IMG/VR virus record: IMGVR_UViG_3300017788_000193
Location: 1-22,447 of that record
DNA: 22,447 nucleotides
Reading direction: 5' to 3' (one strand)
DNA from: a virus
Below are positions 2-12,130 of this stretch, in pieces (position 1 is the first letter of the stretch; each line of letters starts with the position of its first letter). The notes beneath the pieces were generated by a model. The model was not told the origin of the DNA and did no database searches. It saw only the letters and a program-made list of their open reading frames with translations. A program made the position numbers and the translations under genes.

Positions 2-394
2 AAGAACCACCCAGACTTAGTTGACCGCATTAAGTACACATCAAGCCAAACAATTACAGAGGATATGCTTGCTCGTATGTTTGACTTAGATCGTGTTCTT
101 GTTGCTCGTGCAGTAAAGGCAACTAACAATGAAGGTGCAGCCGAAGCATATGGATTTGCTTATGGTAAAGCAGCAGCACTTTATTATGTAGCACCAAGTC
201 CGGGATTACTAACTCCATCAGCAGGTTATACTTTCTCATGGACTGGTGTATCAGGCGGAATTGGTTCAACAATTGGTGTAAGTTCATTCCGTATGGAATC
301 ACTAAAGGCAGAGCGTGTTGAGGCTGAAATGGCTTTTGACAACAAAGTTATTGGCGCTGACCTTGGTTATTTCTGGAATACAATCGTCGCTTAA
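2..394 (+). CDS. Major capsid protein, C-terminal part (5' end outside window)
   Basis: The frame is open from the first bases of the window, so this is the last 130 residues of a longer gene. The fragment begins KNHPDLVDRIKYTSS and contains a helical stretch (ITEDMLARMFDLDRVLVARA), then a beta-rich tail with MESLKAERVEAEMAFDNKVIGADLGYFW just before the stop. This pattern, a surface helix followed by an RxE-type strand and a hydrophobic C-terminus, is what I associate with HK97-fold coat proteins of actinophages. Such proteins form the icosahedral shell. A hairpin terminator follows directly, and two small genes and then a fibre island come next. The internal ATG at 65 is only the first Met in the visible part and is not the true start. 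The call rests on family resemblance and on position upstream of the connector genes. Confidence 0.75.
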   Translation, partial: KNHPDLVDRIKYTSSQTITEDMLARMFDLDRVLVARAVKATNNEGAAEAYGFAYGKAAALYYVAPSPGLLTPSAGYTFSWTGVSGGIGSTIGVSSFRMESLKAERVEAEMAFDNKVIGADLGYFWNTIVA

Positions 395-1326: not shown

Positions 1327-1536
1327 ATGGCTATTTCAATTATTCAATACCCAGTTCCTCAGGTTCTTGTAGATAGCAAAGGTGATATGTTTGTTGCTAC
1401 TGCTGATAACACAGTAGGTAAGTTATCAGTAGGCGCTAACGGAACCGTCCTCACAGCCGACTCAAATGAAGCGGGCGGAGTAAAATGGGCAGCAGCAGCA
1501 AGCGGAGGATTTGATTCTTTTTTGTTAATGGGTTAG
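1327..1536 (+). CDS. Mini fibre-like protein with trimerisation-type motif, 69 aa
   Basis: The ATG follows the previous stop by two bases, with GGAGT upstream. The centre (residues 31-55) carries the pattern KLSVGANGTVLTADSNEAGG followed by VKWA. This is very widespread in phage tail fibres and knob-like structures, where 'G.nGtvLtadS...GvkWa' repeats form intertwined trimers. Here the motif occurs once in a tiny protein, so it may be the trimerising base of a short fibre. The C-terminus is GFDSFLLMG. A closely similar hydrophobic ending is found on the next three proteins, which suggests a shared docking tail. Receptor-binding or head-fibre functions are both possible. Confidence 0.65.
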   Translation: MAISIIQYPVPQVLVDSKGDMFVATADNTVGKLSVGANGTVLTADSNEAGGVKWAAAASGGFDSFLLMG

Positions 1537-1545
1537 GAGTTTATT

Positions 1546-2085
1546 ATGGCATTAAGCCCTGATATAAGTACAGCAATTCTAACTGGCACCTATGTAGATA
1601 TAAATGGAAACCCACAAGTAGGTTTAGTCCGCTTTACTGCAATTTGTAATGTTATTGATACTGACCAAAATCAAATAGTAGTGAGTCAGCCAGTTACAGA
1701 TATTTTAGATGGTAGTGGGGCTTTTAGCGTTACTCTGCCAGTAACTAATGATGCTGACTATACGCCTAATCCTATTGCGTACAGAGTTGAAGAGATATTT
1801 GGAGGCGGTAGAGATTTTTTCATTACTTTACCAGCAGGTCAAGCAAGTTATGATTTAGCAGACTTATCAGAAGCAGTAGATAGTGCCACCGCAGGTAGTT
1901 TTGTTACTACTACTCAATATAATACTTTATTAGGTACTTACAATACCGCTGACGGAAGTTTTACAACTTTAGATAATGCGGAAGATATAGCCGATGCCGC
2001 TACCGCAAATGCTGTGTTATGTTCTGACGAAGTTGCAAACATTCAAAAAGTATCTTTACAACCTTTTATGCTGATGGGACTATAA
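1546..2085 (+). CDS. Beta-sandwich virion protein (paralogue of 2278-2958)
   Basis: This 179-residue protein has a GGAGT ribosome binding site. Residues 8-112 form a domain with strands TAILTGTYVDINGNPQVGLVRF, GSGAFSVTLPVTND and IAYRVEEIFGGGRDFFITLPA. The pattern 'tGtyvD.nGnP..G.V.Ftp...sG.fs..LP..d......pY.v.E.f.....f.i.lP' is common in minor tail and fibre proteins of actinophages. The same domain recurs in the gene at 2278-2958, so the two are paralogues separated by a 63-residue gene. The C-terminal 65 residues are unlike the paralogue until the final QPFMLMGL, which matches the endings of the neighbouring proteins. It is probably a surface fibre or decoration component. Confidence 0.65.
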   Translation: MALSPDISTAILTGTYVDINGNPQVGLVRFTAICNVIDTDQNQIVVSQPVTDILDGSGAFSVTLPVTNDADYTPNPIAYRVEEIFGGGRDFFITLPAGQASYDLADLSEAVDSATAGSFVTTTQYNTLLGTYNTADGSFTTLDNAEDIADAATANAVLCSDEVANIQKVSLQPFMLMGL

Positions 2086-2086
2086 A

Positions 2087-2278
2087 ATGGCTTACGTCCC
2101 TGCGTCGTCCTATACCACTTACACAAATATCATGGCGGGTATTACTCCTGTTACAGATATTGGTAATGCAATTTCATCTGCTATTGATACAGCAAGTGCT
2201 GACGTAACAGCAGATTTGGCAACTATTCAAGCATTAGTTCCTTTAGTTGCTAATCCATTTTTAGGCGGTATTGGCTAA
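2087..2278 (+). CDS. Mini-protein of the fibre island, 63 aa
   Basis: The ATG is one base after the preceding stop, and the stop overlaps the next start as TAATG. The protein is Ala/Thr/Ile-rich with a helical central part (ISSAIDTASADVTADLATIQALV) and ends VANPFLGGIG. It has no membrane segment or recognised domain. Its central helix could be a short coiled-coil multimerisation element. Its C-terminus (P-F-L-G-G) is a loose version of the FLLMG-type ending of its neighbours. The gene is supported by tight spacing, coupling on both sides and composition rather than by homology. Confidence 0.55.
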   Translation: MAYVPASSYTTYTNIMAGITPVTDIGNAISSAIDTASADVTADLATIQALVPLVANPFLGGIG

Positions 2279-2958
2279 TGACAATAGGTGCAGCAGTAAC
2301 TACTGTCACAGTAGCAGGAAATTTTGTTGATTACACAGGAACGGCTATTAGTGGTCAAGTCAAATTTACTTTGAGTACTGTTCTTCAAAATACTACTGAT
2401 AATAAAATTATTGTGCCTTCAACAAAGTCGGTGACTTTAGATTCTAATGGTTCTTTCAGCACTACTCTTCCAGCCACAGACGATACTGACTTAACTCCTA
2501 TTCCTTATACAATCACAGTTGAAGAAGCCTTTCCTAAAGGTAGAACATATACAATTAGCCTTCCTGCTGCTACAGCAGGAACACTTAATTTAGCCGATAT
2601 AAGTCCCGCTATTACTGCTCCTGATACCTATGTCAGTTTGATCGCCGATACTATATGGAATGTATTGACTGCCGATATAGATACCCTTGACGCCCAAATC
2701 GACCAAGGCACTTCTAGTTATGTATTTAGTGGTAAATATAGATACTTTGAATACGGTAATGCTACCTATACGGCCTTAAACGCAAGGGCAGCGACCTATA
2801 CGGCTTTAACTAACATTACTTGGACTACAGTTCCGAGTTTTTTTGACACTTATGAAACTCAAACTGAAAACGCTTCAGTTTCATCATCAGCGAGCGTGTC
2901 GACAGCACAATCTTTGACCACTGGAGTGCTAAACTCGTTCTTATTCTTAGGAGGCTAA
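2278..2958 (+). CDS. Beta-sandwich virion protein, 226 aa (paralogue of 1546-2085)
   Basis: The start overlaps the previous stop (TAATG). Residues 8-115 repeat the domain of the 1546-2085 product: VTVAGNFVDYTGTAISGQVKF, SNGSFSTTLPATDDTD and IPYTITVEEAF...YTISLPA are aligned strand for strand. The C-terminal half is longer than in the paralogue. It contains a tandem YTALNARAATYTALT pair and a Ser-rich stretch (ASVSSSASVSTAQSL) before the ending VLNSFLFLGG. The shared domain and shared ending, with divergent middles, suggest tandem duplication followed by exchange of the central part. That is typical of proteins presented on the virion surface. Function in host contact is inferred. Confidence 0.65.
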   Translation: MTIGAAVTTVTVAGNFVDYTGTAISGQVKFTLSTVLQNTTDNKIIVPSTKSVTLDSNGSFSTTLPATDDTDLTPIPYTITVEEAFPKGRTYTISLPAATAGTLNLADISPAITAPDTYVSLIADTIWNVLTADIDTLDAQIDQGTSSYVFSGKYRYFEYGNATYTALNARAATYTALTNITWTTVPSFFDTYETQTENASVSSSASVSTAQSLTTGVLNSFLFLGG

Positions 2959-3288
2959 ATGGCAACATCATATAAGGTCCTTGGGCAAGTAAATCCTTCC
3001 GCAACGACCGCAACAACAGTTTACACAGTTCCTTCAGCAACAGAAGCGGTAGTTAGTACTATCGTAGTTACTAATCAGGCAGGAACGGCTGGTACTTATC
3101 GTTTAGCGATTAGACCTGATGGTGAGTCCTTAGCGGCGAAACATTATATTGCTTATGATGTAGCCTTACCCGCGAACTCCACCCATACTTACACTATTGG
3201 AGTAACACTCAATGCAGCCGATGTAATAACAGGTTTTGCTTCTTCTGCTAACCAATCATTTAATGTTTTCGGAAGTGAGATTGCGTAA
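2959..3288 (+). CDS. Small beta-rich virion protein, paralogue A of three
   Basis: A very strong GGAGG ribosome binding site sits inside the end of the preceding gene. The 109-residue protein carries the pattern TTATTVYTVPSATEAVVSTI, then VVTNQAGTAGTYRLAI, and ends ITGFASSANQSFNVFGSEIA. The same order (LYTxPAxTxTIVxxxxVxN, TYTLSL, ITGxASxADxxFHxxGxEIA) is found in the two adjacent genes at 6771-7073 and 7073-7381, so the window holds three paralogues. Proteins with this 'TlYTVPa.t..iVStI.v.N' signature are frequent in marine and freshwater phages as small structural proteins. The exact virion position is unknown to me. Confidence 0.65.
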   Translation: MATSYKVLGQVNPSATTATTVYTVPSATEAVVSTIVVTNQAGTAGTYRLAIRPDGESLAAKHYIAYDVALPANSTHTYTIGVTLNAADVITGFASSANQSFNVFGSEIA

Positions 3289-4530: not shown

Positions 4531-5232
4531 ATGCAAAGAATTACCTTTACGAAATTAGGCGATTTTTTTATAGACCCTCAATACTATCCAACGCCGAGTA
4601 AAAAAGTTTTGCCTGAGTGGTATAAGAATACAAAATCTTATTTAACTGATAAACCAAAAGAAATTATTGCAGGTCAAACAACTGCGACTATTAAAAAATG
4701 CATGCCAGTTTTTGATGCTTTAACTAGCGGTTACATTATCTTTACATTTCAAGATATTTCTGTTGAACGCGACGGTGAAAATATCGTATTAAAAACTGTA
4801 ACGAATAACCCTCCTTTAGAATATCATGCCAAATGGCAGTTTAATGAACACCCGCATGCGGGAAAGTTATTTGGGGCTCCGAAATGGTTGAATCCTTGGT
4901 CTATTAGAACGCCAAAAGGATACTCTTGTCTTTTTATGAACCCTGTTCACGGCGCTAATTCTTTCACAATAGTCTTTGAAGGAATTGTAGATACTGACCA
5001 ATACGTCAACCCTGTAAACTTTCCTTTTGTTTTCAAAGACCCACATTTCGAAGGAATAATTCCCGCTGGCACTCCTTTAGTTCAAGTTATTCCTTTCAAA
5101 CGAGATAAGTGGCAATTAGAACTAGGAAGTGATAAAGATTATCAAAATGTAATTAAAAGTGTAGGCAAACTAAAAACTGTTTTTTATGAAGGTTACAAAA
5201 AATTTTTTTGGAGTTCGAAATCTTTTGATTAA
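4531..5232 (+). CDS. Phage protein of unknown function, marine-phage family, 233 aa
   Basis: The protein begins with the pattern KLGDFFIDPQYYPTPSKKVLPEWYK and continues through TIKKCMPVFDALTSGYII, PWSIRTPKGYSCLFMNP, VDTDQYVNPVNFPFVFKDP and FEGIIPAGTPLVQVIPFKRD. I recognise this string of conserved blocks from many marine and freshwater phage genomes, where it is annotated as hypothetical and often lies next to 2-oxoglutarate oxygenase genes, as here. No catalytic motif is evident. The wide, soluble, mostly beta architecture could be a carbohydrate or small-molecule binding fold. The ribosome binding site is weak (TAGGT). The gene converges with the minus-strand oxygenase, and the two stop codons share the bases TTAA. 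Confidence 0.65.
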   Translation: MQRITFTKLGDFFIDPQYYPTPSKKVLPEWYKNTKSYLTDKPKEIIAGQTTATIKKCMPVFDALTSGYIIFTFQDISVERDGENIVLKTVTNNPPLEYHAKWQFNEHPHAGKLFGAPKWLNPWSIRTPKGYSCLFMNPVHGANSFTIVFEGIVDTDQYVNPVNFPFVFKDPHFEGIIPAGTPLVQVIPFKRDKWQLELGSDKDYQNVIKSVGKLKTVFYEGYKKFFWSSKSFD

Positions 5233-5837
5233 CTTCCATTTATCCAAGTTACTAAGGCATATTTAGTTCCGCTAGTTACTGGATGGGCTACGTGAGTATA
5301 AGCATAATTTGAAGGAAAAATAACTAAAGTTCCTGCTTTCGGTTTATATGTTTGTCCAAAGGCTACAAATTCTAATTCACCGCCCTCATAATCATCGTTC
5401 AAATAAAGTATGGCTGATATCCACCTACCATTGTTTGGTCCGCCATCATAATGCGCGTCATAGTGGTCAGAGGTAGTTCCTTCATACTTCAAAAGTCCAT
5501 ACCCTTCATGCTCGCCATAACTACATTCAAAGTCTGTCGTATAAGACTTCAAATGTTCTTCTAGCAACAACCCGAAATCATTATGTATTTGTCTGCAAGT
5601 TTCATTACCTTGGTGCCCTAAAGTAGTGACACGCATTATTTTATTTCTGCGTTTGCCTGCCCATTCACCATTCAGCGTAACTGCCAATTCATAATTTACG
5701 CCTGAATCTTTGATTGCGACTTCTTTTTCTACATTTTCAATTATATTTCGCCAATTTTTGCTAGCACCTTCATAAATATAAACCGCCCCTGCGATTATTT
5801 TAGTTGGCTGTATCTTTGGACCATATATGTATTGCAT
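5229..5837 (-). CDS. Fe(II)/2-oxoglutarate-dependent oxygenase (prolyl 4-hydroxylase type)
   Basis: This 202-residue protein has the P4H catalytic core at residues 120-200. H129-x-D131 (HYDAHYDGG context) and distal H182 (YTHVAHPVTSG) would bind iron, and K192 (GTKYALVTW) is placed to hold the 2-oxoglutarate carboxylate. The strands WISAILYLNDDYEGGELEF and KAGTLVIFPS are typical of the double-stranded beta-helix. All key residues are present, so it is probably active as a hydroxylase; the substrate is unknown. Residues 1-100 are less conserved. The start is fixed by AAGGAG directly upstream, overlapping the end of the second oxygenase gene at 5840-6508. The two form a minus-strand pair inside a plus-strand structural region. 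Confidence 0.85.
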   Translation of the reverse strand: MQYIYGPKIQPTKIIAGAVYIYEGASKNWRNIIENVEKEVAIKDSGVNYELAVTLNGEWAGKRRNKIMRVTTLGHQGNETCRQIHNDFGLLLEEHLKSYTTDFECSYGEHEGYGLLKYEGTTSDHYDAHYDGGPNNGRWISAILYLNDDYEGGELEFVAFGQTYKPKAGTLVIFPSNYAYTHVAHPVTSGTKYALVTWINGS

Positions 5838-5839
5838 TT

Positions 5840-6508
5840 TTACTCCTTAACTAGATTAAAAAAAGAAGGTATTGAATAATTTTTTACATAGATAGCATCT
5901 GCTGCATCTCTTAAATCATAATTTATGTATTTTTCTGGCAATCCTAAATAAGGGCGGGCATCATATTTCAAAGGCCAATATAAGCCTTCAGCATTTACGT
6001 AATGCAGAAAAACTTGAACTTGCCAAGTGCCTTGCTCCCCTTCTAACGGTTCGCGCCAATGCTCTATTTCAGGACCTTTATACAAGACCATGTCCCCTAC
6101 ACCCATAAAAAATTCTTGATCTCCAACCTTCAATCCCCACTGATAATTAGGGTCAGTATGTTCATAGTTGTATCCTAAACATAAAGAAACGCTAATTTCA
6201 CAACTTGGTCTATCTGTATGGCGGTCAAGTTTATCTCCGGGACGATATGTCCTGTACACGGAATAGGTAGGAAAAAGTTTGAGACCTGTATTGGCTTCTA
6301 CTATTGGCAATGCATAAATCAATAGTGATTCCATTAAAGGGTCGCCATATTTCCTATGTGCCCCGACAACTTGGTCAGCATCAGGATTGTAATTCACAAA
6401 AGAATCAAAAACTCCATACTGGGCGGCAATGCCGCATATATCAGCAGAAATAGCGTTTTTTATATGCACGTATTTTCGTGTATTAAAAAGTTCGATATTG
6501 GCTTTCAC
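5840..6508 (-). CDS. Fe(II)/2-oxoglutarate-dependent oxygenase-like protein
   Basis: This is a second, distinct oxygenase. I place the start at the GTG (6506-6508, minus strand) because AAAGGAGA lies 3 nt upstream; a longer reading frame to 6577 has no comparable site. In the resulting 222-residue protein H97-T-D99 (YRPGDKLDRHTDRPS) and H150 (PEIEHWREPL) are the likely iron ligands, followed by the strand QVQVFLHYV. The motif GVGDMVLYKGPEIEHWR is typical of oxygenases found in cyanophages and pelagiphages. The usual Arg/Lys after the distal His is plausible in EHWRE. The gene is the first of a two-gene minus-strand operon. The substrate is unknown; phage fibre proteins, host proteins or DNA bases are all conceivable. 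Confidence 0.8.
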   Translation of the reverse strand: MKANIELFNTRKYVHIKNAISADICGIAAQYGVFDSFVNYNPDADQVVGAHRKYGDPLMESLLIYALPIVEANTGLKLFPTYSVYRTYRPGDKLDRHTDRPSCEISVSLCLGYNYEHTDPNYQWGLKVGDQEFFMGVGDMVLYKGPEIEHWREPLEGEQGTWQVQVFLHYVNAEGLYWPLKYDARPYLGLPEKYINYDLRDAADAIYVKNYSIPSFFNLVKE

Positions 6509-6598
6509 GTTTCTCCTTTGACTTAAAAATAGTCTATCACTGCCCTTAAGGCGATTAACGGCTTTTCTTGAGTACAACTCTTTTTATTTGAGCCCTTC

Positions 6599-6630: not shown

Positions 6631-6771
6631 ATGGCAACAACAGCACGAGGACTTAGATACCCTCTAGCGGCAGATACCCCTGCCGTGCATACTGATATTA
6701 AAAACCTAGCAGACGATTCAACTGCTGAGTTTGATGATTTTCAATATATGGAACTTATGAAGGCTAACTAA
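6631..6771 (+). CDS. Mini virion protein, N-terminal fibre-type motif, 46 aa
   Basis: This short gene starts at an ATG with AAAGGGGG 4 nt upstream and ends in a TAATG overlap with the next gene, so it is well supported despite its size. The protein begins MATTARGLRYPLAADTPAVH and continues TDIKNLADD. The pattern 'RGLRYPl..DtPaVh.Di.NLA.d' is one I know from the N-termini of tail-fibre and minor structural proteins of actinophages, where it is thought to be an attachment segment. Here it stands alone and is followed only by a short acidic/hydrophobic tail (FDDFQYMELMKAN). It could be a detached anchor domain that recruits the following beta-rich proteins. Confidence 0.65.
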   Translation: MATTARGLRYPLAADTPAVHTDIKNLADDSTAEFDDFQYMELMKAN

Positions 6772-7073
6772 TGGCTGTAACTCCTAAAATCTTAGCGAGA
6801 ACTGCTGCCGCAACCTCGCCTACTACTTTATATACAACTCCAGCCGCAACGACTACTATCGTTACACAAGTAACTGTCGCAAATACCTCGGGGGGTAGTG
6901 AAACTTTTACTTTATCTTTTGATGGTTTTGCCGCCTTCACTACTAAGTCAATAGCCGCAAATACAACTACGACTTTTAGTATGAAGCAAGTGTTAGTAGC
7001 AACCGATGTAATTACTGGCTCGGCTTCTTCAGCAGATATCAATTTTCATATTAGCGGAGTGGAGATAGCGTAA
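6771..7073 (+). CDS. Small beta-rich virion protein, paralogue B of three
   Basis: The start is in a TAATG overlap with the mini gene upstream, and the stop overlaps the next start in the same way. The 100-residue protein is built of TTLYTTPAATTTIVTQVTVAN, TFTLSFDG, AANTTTTFSMKQVL and ITGSASSADINFHISGVEIA. It aligns along its whole length with the products at 2959-3288 and 7073-7381. Composition is over one quarter threonine, typical of small all-beta capsid or fibre proteins. It is placed immediately before the connector genes. I infer that it is a structural component, possibly exposed; no catalytic residues are visible. Confidence 0.65.
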   Translation: MAVTPKILARTAAATSPTTLYTTPAATTTIVTQVTVANTSGGSETFTLSFDGFAAFTTKSIAANTTTTFSMKQVLVATDVITGSASSADINFHISGVEIA

Positions 7074-7381
7074 TGGCGACCTTTACTAACAAAGTCCTTC
7101 ATAGAGCAGCCGCACAAACTGGTTCCTCAACTCTTTATACTGTTCCTGCTTCAACTACCACTATCGTGAATAGCATCATTGTTCATAACGAAGGAGGCAC
7201 AACTCGTACTTACACACTCTCATTAAATAGCGTTCAGTTATTTGGTACTGTAAGCATTACTGCTAACGATACCCACCAGTACGAAATTGCCCAACCATTA
7301 CTAACTACGCAAACTATTACAGGTAATGCTTCTCATGCTGATGTTAAGTTTCATATTTGTGGCATAGAGATTGCGTCTTAA
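7073..7381 (+). CDS. Small beta-rich virion protein, paralogue C of three
   Basis: The gene is fused to the preceding one by TAATG. The 102-residue protein repeats the signature STLYTVPASTTTIVNSIIVHN, TYTLSLNS, SITANDTHQYEIAQPL and ITGNASHADVKFHICGIEIAS. It is closer to paralogue B than to A by eye, particularly in the C-terminal ADxxFHxxGxEIA block, so B and C probably arose by the most recent duplication. Its C-terminal Cys and paired His residues differ from paralogue A. Three copies of one fold in a single genome could form different positions of one ring or spike. Confidence 0.65.
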   Translation: MATFTNKVLHRAAAQTGSSTLYTVPASTTTIVNSIIVHNEGGTTRTYTLSLNSVQLFGTVSITANDTHQYEIAQPLLTTQTITGNASHADVKFHICGIEIAS

Positions 7382-7806: not shown

Positions 7807-8169
7807 ATGACCTATATTGCAGGACAGCCCAATCATTGGCTAGACGACATGACCGATACTATTACGGTCTATAAAGCAACTACTCTTAATAACTATGGCT
7901 CGAAATCAATAAGTGGCGTAGGCACCAACTTTTCTTGTCGTGTAATTTCAGATGTTGCAACTACTCGTGACGAACAAGGCAATCAAGTTGTTGAAGGAGG
8001 AACTCTTTACATACTTTCGGACGCTAATATTGAAGTTGGTGACAGATTAGATTTGCCGGGAAATAACGCAGACCCTAGAATACTTAGCGTAGATAAGGTA
8101 AGTTATAGCGCAAATGGAACTCCAGCAGTTCATCATACTAAAGTAAGGTTTGGTTCTATCGGTGGCTAA
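7807..8169 (+). CDS. Head closure / head-tail stopper protein
   Basis: The gene has a GGGGG-type ribosome binding site 4 nt before the ATG. The 120-residue protein begins with a tryptophan-containing stretch (HWLDDMTDTITVYKAT), followed by beta strands (FSCRVISDV, GTLYILSDANIEVGDRLDLPG) and ending with RILSVDKVSY...HHTKVRFG. Small beta-barrel proteins reading 'D..ti....V..G....Y.....i...D.l...g....I..V......g..hh..V..g' are head-tail stopper proteins of the SPP1 gp16 / HK97 gp7 kind. They plug the connector after DNA packaging. The position between adaptor and HK97 gp10-like gene agrees. The end overlaps the next gene by 8 nt. Confidence 0.75.
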   Translation: MTYIAGQPNHWLDDMTDTITVYKATTLNNYGSKSISGVGTNFSCRVISDVATTRDEQGNQVVEGGTLYILSDANIEVGDRLDLPGNNADPRILSVDKVSYSANGTPAVHHTKVRFGSIGG

Positions 8170-9169: not shown

Positions 9170-9370
9170 ATGACTTGTTCAGTTAAAAAAACTTTAGAAA
9201 GTTTAGAAGAACCGACAAGAAATAAGTTAATTGCTTTAATGGAAAATCCAGAAGTTCTATCTTTAGACTTAGTGAATTTATTAAAAGCACATGGATACTT
9301 CGTTAGCGCAGAAGTAATGCGACGCCATAGAAGAAGAGCAAAAGGCGGTGGTTGTTCTTGTCCAATCTAG
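9170..9370 (+). CDS. Small helix-turn-helix protein with C-terminal RRHRRR-CxC, 66 aa
   Basis: I start at the ATG at 9170, where the conserved part begins. A longer frame from a GTG at 9008 would run antiparallel in meaning to the zinc ribbon and looks non-conserved. The protein reads MTCSVKKTLESLEEPTRNKL, a helical domain (LSLDLVNLLKAHGYFVSAEVM) and RRHRRRAKGGGCSCP. This form, a helix-turn-helix in which the last helix is followed by R-R-H-R-R and CxC, is frequent in actinophages. There it is annotated as an HTH DNA-binding protein and sometimes suggested as a small terminase-like factor. Its stop overlaps the start of the metallophosphoesterase gene, so the two are probably co-translated and work together. 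Confidence 0.7.
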   Translation: MTCSVKKTLESLEEPTRNKLIALMENPEVLSLDLVNLLKAHGYFVSAEVMRRHRRRAKGGGCSCPI

Positions 9371-10566
9371 ATGAAGAAATGGACAGACTACTTAAAACTT
9401 CTAATAATCCAACCAACGAACCTAGATTAAATAAAATAGGAGCAGAGTGGCAAGCAGGAGTTATTTGGAATGGCGATGAAGGAACAATAACTACTACAGC
9501 ATTACCTTTAGAAGAAGCACCAAACTGGGACGCGATACTTAGAATATGGGGACTTGACCCAGAAAACTTCAGAGTAGTTGAACCTGTTTTATTTAATGTT
9601 TGGGGTAATCCAGATGGTGCACTTAATCGCCAATGGAAAGGTAAAGTAGTTCAAATAAAAGACGATAATAAAAAAGAAGATTTAACAAAGTTAGAAAATG
9701 AAATAAAAAAATATAAACCAAATCTTAAAACTTCTTTCACTGGTGAAGGTGCTTTAATCGTAGTTTTATCTGACTGGCAAATAGGTAAAGCAGACGGAGA
9801 TGGATTAAAAGGAACTATTGAAAGAATATTGAATGCGATAGACAAAGTAGAAGTTAGAATTAAAGAATTAGAAAAACTGAAAAGACCTATTGGCAAATTA
9901 ATCGTATTGTGGACAGGAGATTCTATAGAGGGTTGCGTAGGTCATTACGCCCAACAAACCTTTTCAGTTGAATTAGATAGGCGCGACCAAGTAAAAATTG
10001 CTAGAAGACTGTTAAGAGATGCTTTAATGAGATGGAGTAAATACTTCAATGAAGTTCAGGTATTAGCAGTAGGTGGCAATCATGGAGAAAATAGAAACAA
10101 TACAGGCAAGTCTTATACAACCCTTAATGATAATGATGATGTAGCCATAGTTGAACAGGTGGCAGAAATCCTTGAAACTAATCAAGAGGCTTTTGGGCAT
10201 ATCCAGTTTGCTATACCGAAAGATAGATTAAGTATTACAGTAGAAGTTGCTGGTTGGGTACTCGGAATTACGCATGGTCATGCAGCAAGAAGAGGTGGTC
10301 AGGGAGTAGAGCAAAAGTTAAGAAGATGGCTAGAAGGGCAGGCATTAGGTCGTCAACATGTAGGTGGAGCAGATGTATTAGTTTCAGGTCATTTTCATCA
10401 TTTTAGAATTGCCGACTGGGGTGGTTGTGTTTGGCTACAAGCACCAGCAATGGATGGCGGAAGTGATTGGTGGAAAGAAATAACTGGTGAAAAATCTGAA
10501 TCAGGTGTTTTAACATTTTGTATGTACCCTGAAATTAGAGTTACGGATATTGCATTACTTAAGTAA
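9352..10566 (+). CDS. Calcineurin-like metallophosphoesterase (putative DNA nuclease)
   Basis: This 404-residue protein starts at a TTG (9352 or 9358) within the end of the HTH gene. Metal-binding motifs appear in order: SDWQIG (D141, where D-x-H is usual and here Q replaces H), GDSIEG (D190), GGNHGE (N243-H244), THGH (307-310) and SGHFHH (347-350). This is the Mre11/calcineurin phosphoesterase order, so all main ligands are present except the first His. Residues 30-105 are a separate N-terminal region (EWQAGVIWNGDEGTITTTAL, NWDAILRIWGLDP) that I know from actinophage proteins next to RRHRR HTH genes. Together the pair could process or repair phage DNA; nuclease activity is inferred, not shown. 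Confidence 0.75.
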   Translation: MFLSNLDEEMDRLLKTSNNPTNEPRLNKIGAEWQAGVIWNGDEGTITTTALPLEEAPNWDAILRIWGLDPENFRVVEPVLFNVWGNPDGALNRQWKGKVVQIKDDNKKEDLTKLENEIKKYKPNLKTSFTGEGALIVVLSDWQIGKADGDGLKGTIERILNAIDKVEVRIKELEKLKRPIGKLIVLWTGDSIEGCVGHYAQQTFSVELDRRDQVKIARRLLRDALMRWSKYFNEVQVLAVGGNHGENRNNTGKSYTTLNDNDDVAIVEQVAEILETNQEAFGHIQFAIPKDRLSITVEVAGWVLGITHGHAARRGGQGVEQKLRRWLEGQALGRQHVGGADVLVSGHFHHFRIADWGGCVWLQAPAMDGGSDWWKEITGEKSESGVLTFCMYPEIRVTDIALLK

Positions 10567-10954: not shown

Positions 10955-11710
10955 ATGCCTACTTTCAGACATGGTAAAGGGGCTGTTGTCCTAAGTAATC
11001 AATTTGATTTGTCTGGGTATCTAAACAGTGTTACCACATCTAATGCTATAGAAATACCTGAAACAACTACATTTGGTTCAACTGATCGGTCATACATTAC
11101 AGGACACACAGATGGTTCTATAAGTTTTGAAGGTTTATTTGATGGAACAACTAATGGAGTAACTGTCGGCGCAACCGCCGATGGTATAGATAAAATTCTT
11201 TCCGATGCGTTAGGTTCAGACACAGCCCGAGTCATGTCGGTTACTGGAGATGGAGCAACGATTGGAAGGAGAGCGGTATTGGTTAATGCTAAAAGTACTT
11301 CTTATGAAGTTGCTTCACCATTGACTGATGTCGTAGCAATTTCAGGCGAAGCAGTTGCCGACTCTGGTTTAGATTATGGTGTTTGGTTAGCAGGAAATGC
11401 TTCTGTATCAACCACCTTAAACGCAACCTCGGTAGACAATGCTGCTAGTTCAGCAAATGGTGGGGTGGCACATTTACATGTAACTGCGAACACTCGCAAT
11501 GGGACTACCGTAGCGAAGATCCAAAGTTCAGCCGATAACTCAACATTTGCAGACCTTGTCACCTTCACAACAATTTCAACCACCACAGTTACTTCAGAAA
11601 GAGTAGTTGTTGCGGCTGGAACTTCTGTACCTCGTTATTTAAGAGCGCAAGTAACTCCAGCAGGAAGTACTGGCGCCTTAACTGTATCTATCGCATTCTC
11701 AAGGAGATAA
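10955..11710 (+). CDS. Major tail tube protein, long form (251 aa)
   Basis: The gene follows the small gene by 2 nt. The N-terminus MPTFRHGKGAV and residues 20-70 (LNSVTTSNAIEIPETTTFGSTDRSYITGHTDGSISFEGLFDG) match the paralogue at 11714-12130. Both fit the tail-tube / gpV-like fold, in which this region forms the ring interface. Residues 130-251 are an extra beta domain (VAHLHVTANTRNGTTVAKIQ, ADLVTFTTISTTTVTSERVV, VPRYLRAQV...LTVSIAFSR) like those attached to tail-tube proteins of many actinophages, which project from the tail surface. I assign it as a tube subunit, possibly the decorated form. Which of the two paralogues is the main tube protein cannot be decided here. Confidence 0.75.
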   Translation: MPTFRHGKGAVVLSNQFDLSGYLNSVTTSNAIEIPETTTFGSTDRSYITGHTDGSISFEGLFDGTTNGVTVGATADGIDKILSDALGSDTARVMSVTGDGATIGRRAVLVNAKSTSYEVASPLTDVVAISGEAVADSGLDYGVWLAGNASVSTTLNATSVDNAASSANGGVAHLHVTANTRNGTTVAKIQSSADNSTFADLVTFTTISTTTVTSERVVVAAGTSVPRYLRAQVTPAGSTGALTVSIAFSRR

Positions 11711-11713
11711 AAA

Positions 11714-12130
11714 ATGCCAACATTTAGACATGGTAAATCTGCTGTATTCAAAGTAGACAATTCAGCAGGTACTCTTACCGATATCAGTAATACACTTAAT
11801 TCAGTTTCATTTCCACGAGAGGCAGAAGTTTTAGAAACTACCTCTTTTGGCTCATCAGATAGAACCTATATTGTCGGATTCAAAAACGGCACATTCAGTA
11901 TTGAAGGTTCATTTGATGCGACTGTTGATGCTCACTTATCAGGAATCCTTGGTCAAGACGCTACTGTGTCTTTTGAACATGGACCTGAAGGTTCTACATC
12001 AACTTTCACTAAGTACACAGGTGAGTGCATTATGACCGCATATGAAACATCTGTCGGAGTAGATGACGTAGTTTCTTACTCAGCAGAGTTTCAAATCAGT
12101 GGCGCTGTAACTCGCGGTACTTACGCATAA
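11714..12130 (+). CDS. Major tail tube protein, short paralogue (138 aa)
   Basis: The gene lies 3 nt after its paralogue. It shares the exact start MPTFRHGK and the blocks LNSVSFPREAEVLETTSFGSSDRTYIVGF, then GTFSIEGSFDATVD. It lacks the C-terminal extra domain and ends with a full tube-like beta sheet (STFTKYTGECIMTAYETSVG, VVSYSAEFQISGAVTRG). 'EC.v..ye....vddvv.ysaefq.sG.v.r' is the usual ending of siphoviral tube proteins. This copy is complete and compact, so it is the more likely main tube subunit. It is immediately upstream of the chaperone genes, the classical position. Confidence 0.8.
   Translation: MPTFRHGKSAVFKVDNSAGTLTDISNTLNSVSFPREAEVLETTSFGSSDRTYIVGFKNGTFSIEGSFDATVDAHLSGILGQDATVSFEHGPEGSTSTFTKYTGECIMTAYETSVGVDDVVSYSAEFQISGAVTRGTYA

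Follow-up and report, generated by a model that had tools for sequence, protein, structure and literature searches.

Four consecutive short genes near the start of the window, the whole 22,447-nucleotide stretch of viral DNA analysed here, encode proteins that all end in variants of one hydrophobic peptide. The genes, which we call A to D, lie behind the capsid gene and ahead of connector genes found at 7807 and 8552. Their common ending, hereafter the tag, is conserved among related phages and, judging from the aligned sequences, is replaced as a set across A, B and D. We tentatively propose, with somewhat less than even confidence, that A to D are subunits of a multi-protein, neck-type fibre, in which the tag would serve as a shared distal joint or stalk cap. 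The four open reading frames and their endings proved to be exactly those given in the original prediction when we compared the coordinates and translations. The features discussed below are as follows.

65..394, + strand: HK97-type major capsid protein, C-terminal part (phrog_1005 major head protein, E 2e-25)
1327..1536, + strand: gene A, 69 aa, with a short N-terminus, one fibre repeat (residues 12-56) and the tag (phrog_33513, E 2.8e-12; phrog_38058 tail fiber, E 3e-8)
1513..1533, + strand: tag of A, DSFLLMG (..GGFDSFLLMG); EIA(G/S)LFFFS instead in the related contigs L137-L141, L168, L170 and L172
1546..2085, + strand: gene B, 179 aa, with a predicted transthyretin-like N-terminal domain of anchor type, a predicted helical stalk and the tag (phrog_14726; AF2 model; fold match)
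1546..1881, + strand: predicted N-terminal beta domain of B, about residues 1-112 (structure matches of the AF2 model)
1909..2082, + strand: predicted helical stalk of B, helices 122-143 and 145-178, continuing into the tag (AF2 model)
2059..2082, + strand: tag of B, QPFMLMGL (..SLQPFMLMGL); the Met-Gly pair is present in every one of 32 non-redundant B homologues
2087..2278, + strand: gene C, 63 aa, without an N-terminal domain, ending in the tag (reading frame read directly)
2252..2275, + strand: tag of C, NPFLGGIG (..VANPFLGGIG); homologues end LMLGGA, NPLMLGGG or FLVGA
2278..2958, + strand: gene D, 226 aa, a B paralogue whose stalk is longer, ending in the tag (hhalign against B; phrog_14726)
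2278..2613, + strand: predicted N-terminal beta domain of D, about residues 1-112 (AF2 model; homology to B)
2932..2955, + strand: tag of D, NSFLFLGG (..VLNSFLFLGG); the codon scan used the NP..IGG form of this tag
2949..2954, + strand: AGGAGG ribosome-binding site of the gene at 2959, within the Gly-Gly codons of the D tag (read directly)
6631..6771, + strand: GxRYP protein, 46 aa, shorter and without a tag in the window; homologues elsewhere carry type-1 or type-2 (..EIAVIMSAF) tags

The window shows a siphovirus-type gene order (capsid, small structural genes, connectors, two major tail proteins, tape measure and tail proteins) and also encodes an endolysin-like CHAP protein. The capsid gene starts before the window, position 65 being an internal ATG, and related loci hold full-length capsid homologues of 325 aa. 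The closest relatives of the window are metagenome contigs, and the phages form a freshwater family. One relative has a capsid protein that shares 50-56% identity with its counterparts in cultured Arthrobacter phages and 54% with that of a Microbacterium phage, and a WhiB protein is encoded in seven of the eleven long relatives; given this capsid similarity and these WhiB genes, the host of the group is probably an actinobacterium. Homology searches of cultured phages and of bacterial genomes returned no match to gene D. Elsewhere in the window, two reverse-strand genes lie within the structural block. The one at 5229-5837 encodes a 2OG-Fe(II) oxygenase (PF13640, E 1.7e-16), and its neighbour at 5840-6577 resembles it by eye and has no Pfam match; in related phages this slot is filled by other genes (7956-8663 in L004, 8729-9421 in L009). 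A calcineurin-like phosphoesterase (9352-10566) lies between the head-tail connector and the tail genes. Two related major tail proteins in tandem (10955-11710 and 11714-12130; phrog_9522 and phrog_10528) both start with MPTFRHGK, the first having an additional C-terminal part, and a proteasome-like (Ntn hydrolase) protein at 19515-20072 matches PF00227 with an E of 1.9e-4, just under the curated cut-off.

We gathered relatives of A to D by homology scans and by a scan for the tag codons; most of the contigs are related to one another, so the counts that follow are not independent. Bacterial genomes, which were searched too, yielded no relatives. At the sequence level, the endings of A to D share the pattern (N/H/S)(P/S/Q)(F/L)(L/M)L(M/I)G(G/L/V), and it is kept in relatives whose bodies have diverged down to about 35-50% identity. 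Proteins of the B family end in QPFMLMGL, SPYLLMGL, KPFLLMGL, HQFVLMGM, NQFLLMGV, KSLLFMGV or NQMMLMGV, those of the D family in NSFLFLGG, NPLLLIGG, HPFLLIGG or SPLLLIGG, those of the A family in DSFLLMG, NAFLLMG or NPFLLIG, and those of the C family in NPFLGGIG, FNLMLGGA, NPLMLGGG or FEILFLVGA. Pairwise identity in D is 0.83 for the tag, 0.64 for the N-terminal domain and 0.49 for the stalk, and the tag ranks second of 107 eight-residue windows, behind the N-terminal domain. In B the tag reaches 0.55 against 0.40 for the stalk and ranks eighth of 60 windows. By strict identity the C tag is not more conserved than the rest of the protein (0.46 versus 0.45), being conserved as a pattern only; the C protein of the window is also the weakest tag match, and the membership of C depends on relatives ending LMLGGA or NPLMLGGG. 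We then used a leave-one-family-out test, in which a profile from three families scores the fourth and 18,073 internal fake C-termini serve as the control. Not one of the 18,073 scored as high as the median for A, B or D; for C, 14 did so. The shared endings are thus beyond chance.

Among 1,181 distinct open reading frames in the related contigs, 165 fit the type-1 (FLLMG-type) pattern, 163 of them in five families: B and D, which form one homology cluster, C, A and the GxRYP protein, which is 70-140 aa long in related phages and in its tagged members ends LGGM (..FMLGGM). Scanning viral contigs with the tag alone, as the codons for NP(L/F)3 I GG-stop, retrieved 40 contigs, compared with 0 for permuted codons; 37 of these are clear D homologues, and the remaining three are a D fragment, a gene truncated where its contig ends and a match that lacks an open frame and is due to chance. 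The original prediction had named a lack of enrichment in related phages, or endings that vary freely between close homologues, as grounds for refuting it, and neither was seen: endings are retained in diverged homologues and the codon scan separates cleanly from its control. There is one limit. Across viruses no enrichment was seen for the exact string NxF(L/F)(L/F)MG-stop, which with TAA occurs 49 times in viral contigs versus 38 for the permuted control, and 3 versus 4 times as the in-frame end of reading frames of at least 40 aa. The tag is particular to a single group of phages rather than a signal used by phages in general. In the literature that we searched, mostly outside subscription journals, we found no description of a conserved C-terminal motif in phage fibre proteins; a prior description is possible.

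A second type of tag, EIA followed by hydrophobic residues, ends other A proteins (IEIASLFFFS) and other GxRYP proteins (LEIAVIMSAF), and similar ends occur on single other fibre-like reading frames (FIEILMSAF in L167, DEILIVMGAI in L112). Since type-1 and type-2 ends are found in both families, the A and GxRYP bodies each occur with either tag. The A protein of L139 has a body 91-93% identical to window-type A proteins (81% to that of L011), yet ends EIAGLFFFS, whereas the more distant A protein of L142 (60-70% identical to the others) keeps the type-1 end. Aligned as DNA, A genes with the one and the other end diverge after the codons for KW. Next to a type-2 A gene, the B protein terminates in SLLFPAK or SLLFPVK followed by two more residues, and the D protein in NRLLLIGAKK or NRLMLIGAKP/Q; the readable contigs of this kind (L139-L141, L168, L170 and L172) have no C. 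The N-terminal domains of B and D in these sets are 38-50% identical to the others (in L139, 42% for B and 44% for D to the window), and the B and D ends in this lineage are not one clean second tag. Because a near-identical A body carries the other tail where the B and D ends also differ, the A tail follows the neighbouring module and not the body of A. Since the contigs of type 2 are related to each other, the tag switch may reflect only one or two evolutionary events. Together, the conservation, the enrichment over the permuted control and the two alternative tags on the same bodies bear out the original proposal of a shared functional peptide at the C-terminus of several fibre-like proteins. 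More speculatively, the endings could constitute a modular C-terminal connector code, in which at least five fibre-subunit families would use one peptide in two switchable versions, FLLMG-type and EIAxLFFF-type, that decide co-assembly.

The bodies of the four proteins had been described as different, which is correct for A and C, since profile comparisons detected no relation of either to B or D outside the end, but not for B against D. Homology between the latter two extends through roughly the first 137 residues (hhalign 100%, E 2e-39, 137 columns), and by this match they are paralogues. The profile comparison of A with B aligns the last ten residues only, and that of B with C is weak. C nearly equals the B stalk (61-62 residues) in length, and its stop codon overlaps the start of D; the end-anchored, ungapped similarity between C and the B stalk (mean z 2.6, computed over related sets) is suggestive of a common origin. 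Pfam gave nothing useful for A to D. The PHROG 14726 tail fiber profile covers the N-terminal part only, matching B with an E of 2.3e-13 (residues 2-110) and D with an E of 6.7e-17 (residues 2-129), while the fibre repeat of A is also found in actinophage minor tail and fibre proteins.

We next turned to structure models of B and D. The AF2 model of B (mean pLDDT 73) predicts a beta N-terminal domain and a C-terminal helix running through the tag, with a pLDDT of 64-79 for most of the stalk and 53 for the last nine residues. The model of D (pLDDT 57) is reliable in the N-terminal domain only, the stalk scoring about 31-39. In structure comparison the modelled B domain matched the A-1(L) neck fibre (8keg_a; Z 10.5, rmsd 2.9, 99 residues aligned), the Bxb1 tail tip (9d93_La; Z 9.3), the Ur-lambda tail tip (9e7m_Ta; Z 8.6), the A-1(L) tail fibre (Z 7.9) and the XM1 collar spike (7kjk_A3; Z 7.8, rmsd 5.2). 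As cellular transthyretin-like domains score similarly, at 8.8 and less, between and just below the phage matches, the fold is a common one and only the first match or two stand out. With the B domain as query, phmmer found no PDB chain up to an E of 10, and profile A5 gave no fibre match. The model of B therefore indicates a fold resemblance to neck and collar anchor proteins, not membership among them, and the same would apply to D by its homology to B. The fold occurs at tail tips too (9d93, 9e7m), and a neck location is not certain. Since it is the fold of fibre domains that attach N-terminally to the neck or the tail tip, the tag of B and D, if the models are right, is probably found at the distal tip of a short helical stalk and not at a virion dock.

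On this basis, A to D would encode short subunits of one multi-protein fibre assembly beside the capsid gene. B and D would attach to the virion, most likely at the neck or collar, through the transthyretin-like domain, which a short, probably trimeric, helical stalk would follow. The tag would act as a hydrophobic plug capping the distal stalk ends, and as a common joint where B, C, D and A, the protein with the fibre repeat, contact one another or the next part of the fibre, encoded by a gene of its own. C, having no N-terminal domain, may consist of a stalk alone. A conserved tag at this probable distal end, on subunits of different build, fits a joint or cap shared within a split fibre. 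Counting against a joint are the missing N-terminal domain of A and C, the stalk and tag being the least certain parts of the models, and the loss of C and the mixed B and D ends in the type-2 lineage.

Known fibres provide partial parallels to this arrangement. The neck fibre of A-1(L) consists of three separately encoded proteins, gp82-gp81-gp80, arranged head-to-tail, and the N-terminal domain of gp82 (gp82N) binds the neck (PMC10966104; PDB 8KEG). A to D would likewise be several separately encoded short proteins placed end to end, and gp82 resembles B in its N-terminal fold and B and D in length (241 versus 179 and 226 aa). However, gp82 has no detectable sequence similarity to the B domain and carries a further C-terminal domain where B and D have a helical stalk and tag, and A-1(L) is a myophage of cyanobacteria. 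Its neck-fibre proteins were considered as tag carriers and rejected, the sequences of gp82, gp81 and gp80, picked from the deposited genome by length and order, being without the tag. The A-1(L) fibre genes also lie elsewhere in the genome, and a position near head and connector genes is thus not diagnostic of neck fibres. In the collar spike protein gp40 of Vibrio phage XM1, an Ig-like N-terminal domain of ~100 residues binds the neck (PMC10457771; PDB 7KJK). This domain aligns with that of B at the scores given above, but gp40 is a single chain of 839 residues, and a shared tag is not described for it. In Arthrobacter phage Laroye (KU160654), long fibre proteins of 580 and 279 residues occupy the slot of A to D. 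Laroye gp28 has the same position behind a homologous capsid protein (about 50% identity) and what reads as an N-terminal domain followed by an Ala/Ser-rich stalk, a resemblance to B judged by eye, but differs in being one long chain with collagen and distal domains and without the tag. A peptide that joins fibre to virion is familiar from adenovirus, where FNPVYPY binds the penton base. It is the short conserved tail by which the trimeric fibre is joined to another virion part (PMC8156859). Unlike the C-terminal tag, it is N-terminal, belongs to one protein of an animal virus and has a different motif, and the comparison is an analogy only.

The original prediction took the tag for a docking signal that fixes several proteins to one site on the virion. 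On this doubtful alternative, each tag would occupy the same capsid or connector pocket with the N-terminal parts displayed outward, much as the cargo tags of encapsulins. Encapsulin targeting peptides are short and conserved, and direct different proteins to an HK97-fold shell. The likeness lies in a short C-terminal peptide common to unrelated proteins whose genes are beside an HK97-fold shell gene; encapsulin peptides differ in loading cargo inside a compartment, and we draw an analogy without claiming membership. A dock would account for different N-terminal modules sharing one C-terminus, for genes placed directly behind the capsid gene, for a conservation unlike that of a typical receptor-binding tip, and for A and C having no N-terminal anchor. 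In contrast, B and D have the fold of an N-terminal anchor domain, and either set of tags can accompany capsid proteins that are 77-79% identical (L003 or L009 versus L139 or L168), such that a capsid dock must accept both, which makes it less likely. The docking role is less probable for B and D, and could still apply to A and C.

It is unlikely, too, that the tag is a self-contained oligomerisation cap, spread by shuffling, in which three peptides would form a foldon-like hydrophobic plug that fixes the stalk register with no outside partner. Such a cap would be well placed directly after the predicted helix in B and D, and could follow stalks as different as the helical one of B and D and the fibre repeat of A. 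Yet a pure cap need not change with its neighbours, while sets with other B and D ends also have another A tail. A cap and the joint that we favour are not mutually exclusive.

Phage fibres often need dedicated chaperones, and a short shared C-terminal signal would fit one; it is nevertheless very improbable that the tag serves as a signal read by a chaperone or another assembly factor while the fibre folds, with no role in the finished virion, as no candidate chaperone gene is found among the conserved neighbours. Some of the glycines have a second possible reason, because the Gly-Gly codons of D double as the AGGAGG site of the next gene, an arrangement also seen in most D homologues among those listed. 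We rejected the ribosome-binding site as the sole explanation of the tag glycines: it is at most a partial reason, in D only, the site in A lying behind the stop codon, and the hydrophobic block of the D tag is under no such constraint. The leucine and proline codons of the tags vary while the residues stay, and therefore selection acts on the protein. That the endings have no shared function, with common descent of the paralogues B and D, the overlap of the D glycines with AGGAGG, and chance in A and in the weak C tag of the window accounting for them, is hardly credible given the leave-one-family-out result, hydrophobic residues conserved across changing codons, a scan of 40 versus 0 (though nearly all 40 are one family), and tags on A, C and GxRYP proteins that, their ends excepted, show no detectable relationship with B or D (tested for A and C).

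Multi-chain phage fibres need rules for which chain joins which. If our proposal is true, a terminal peptide of seven or eight residues, shared by non-homologous subunits and existing in two versions, would be a simple and portable connector. It would aid the annotation of the many unnamed small genes that follow capsid genes in viral metagenomes from aquatic habitats, and the tag codons, which alone retrieve this fibre family, offer a search handle.

Two further observations concern the genes around A to D. In L112-L129 and L155-L167, the second gene after D encodes fibre-like proteins with conserved, group-specific ends (QTKFA, FAVQVFA) on bodies that differ in length. The window also encodes three similar proteins of ~100 aa that end G(S/V/I)EIA, at 2959-3288, 6771-7073 and 7073-7381; phrog_1276 matches the first two, and the third was likened to them by eye. 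The gene at 2959-3288 immediately follows D in nearly all relatives that were read; its product is a candidate for the tag's partner.
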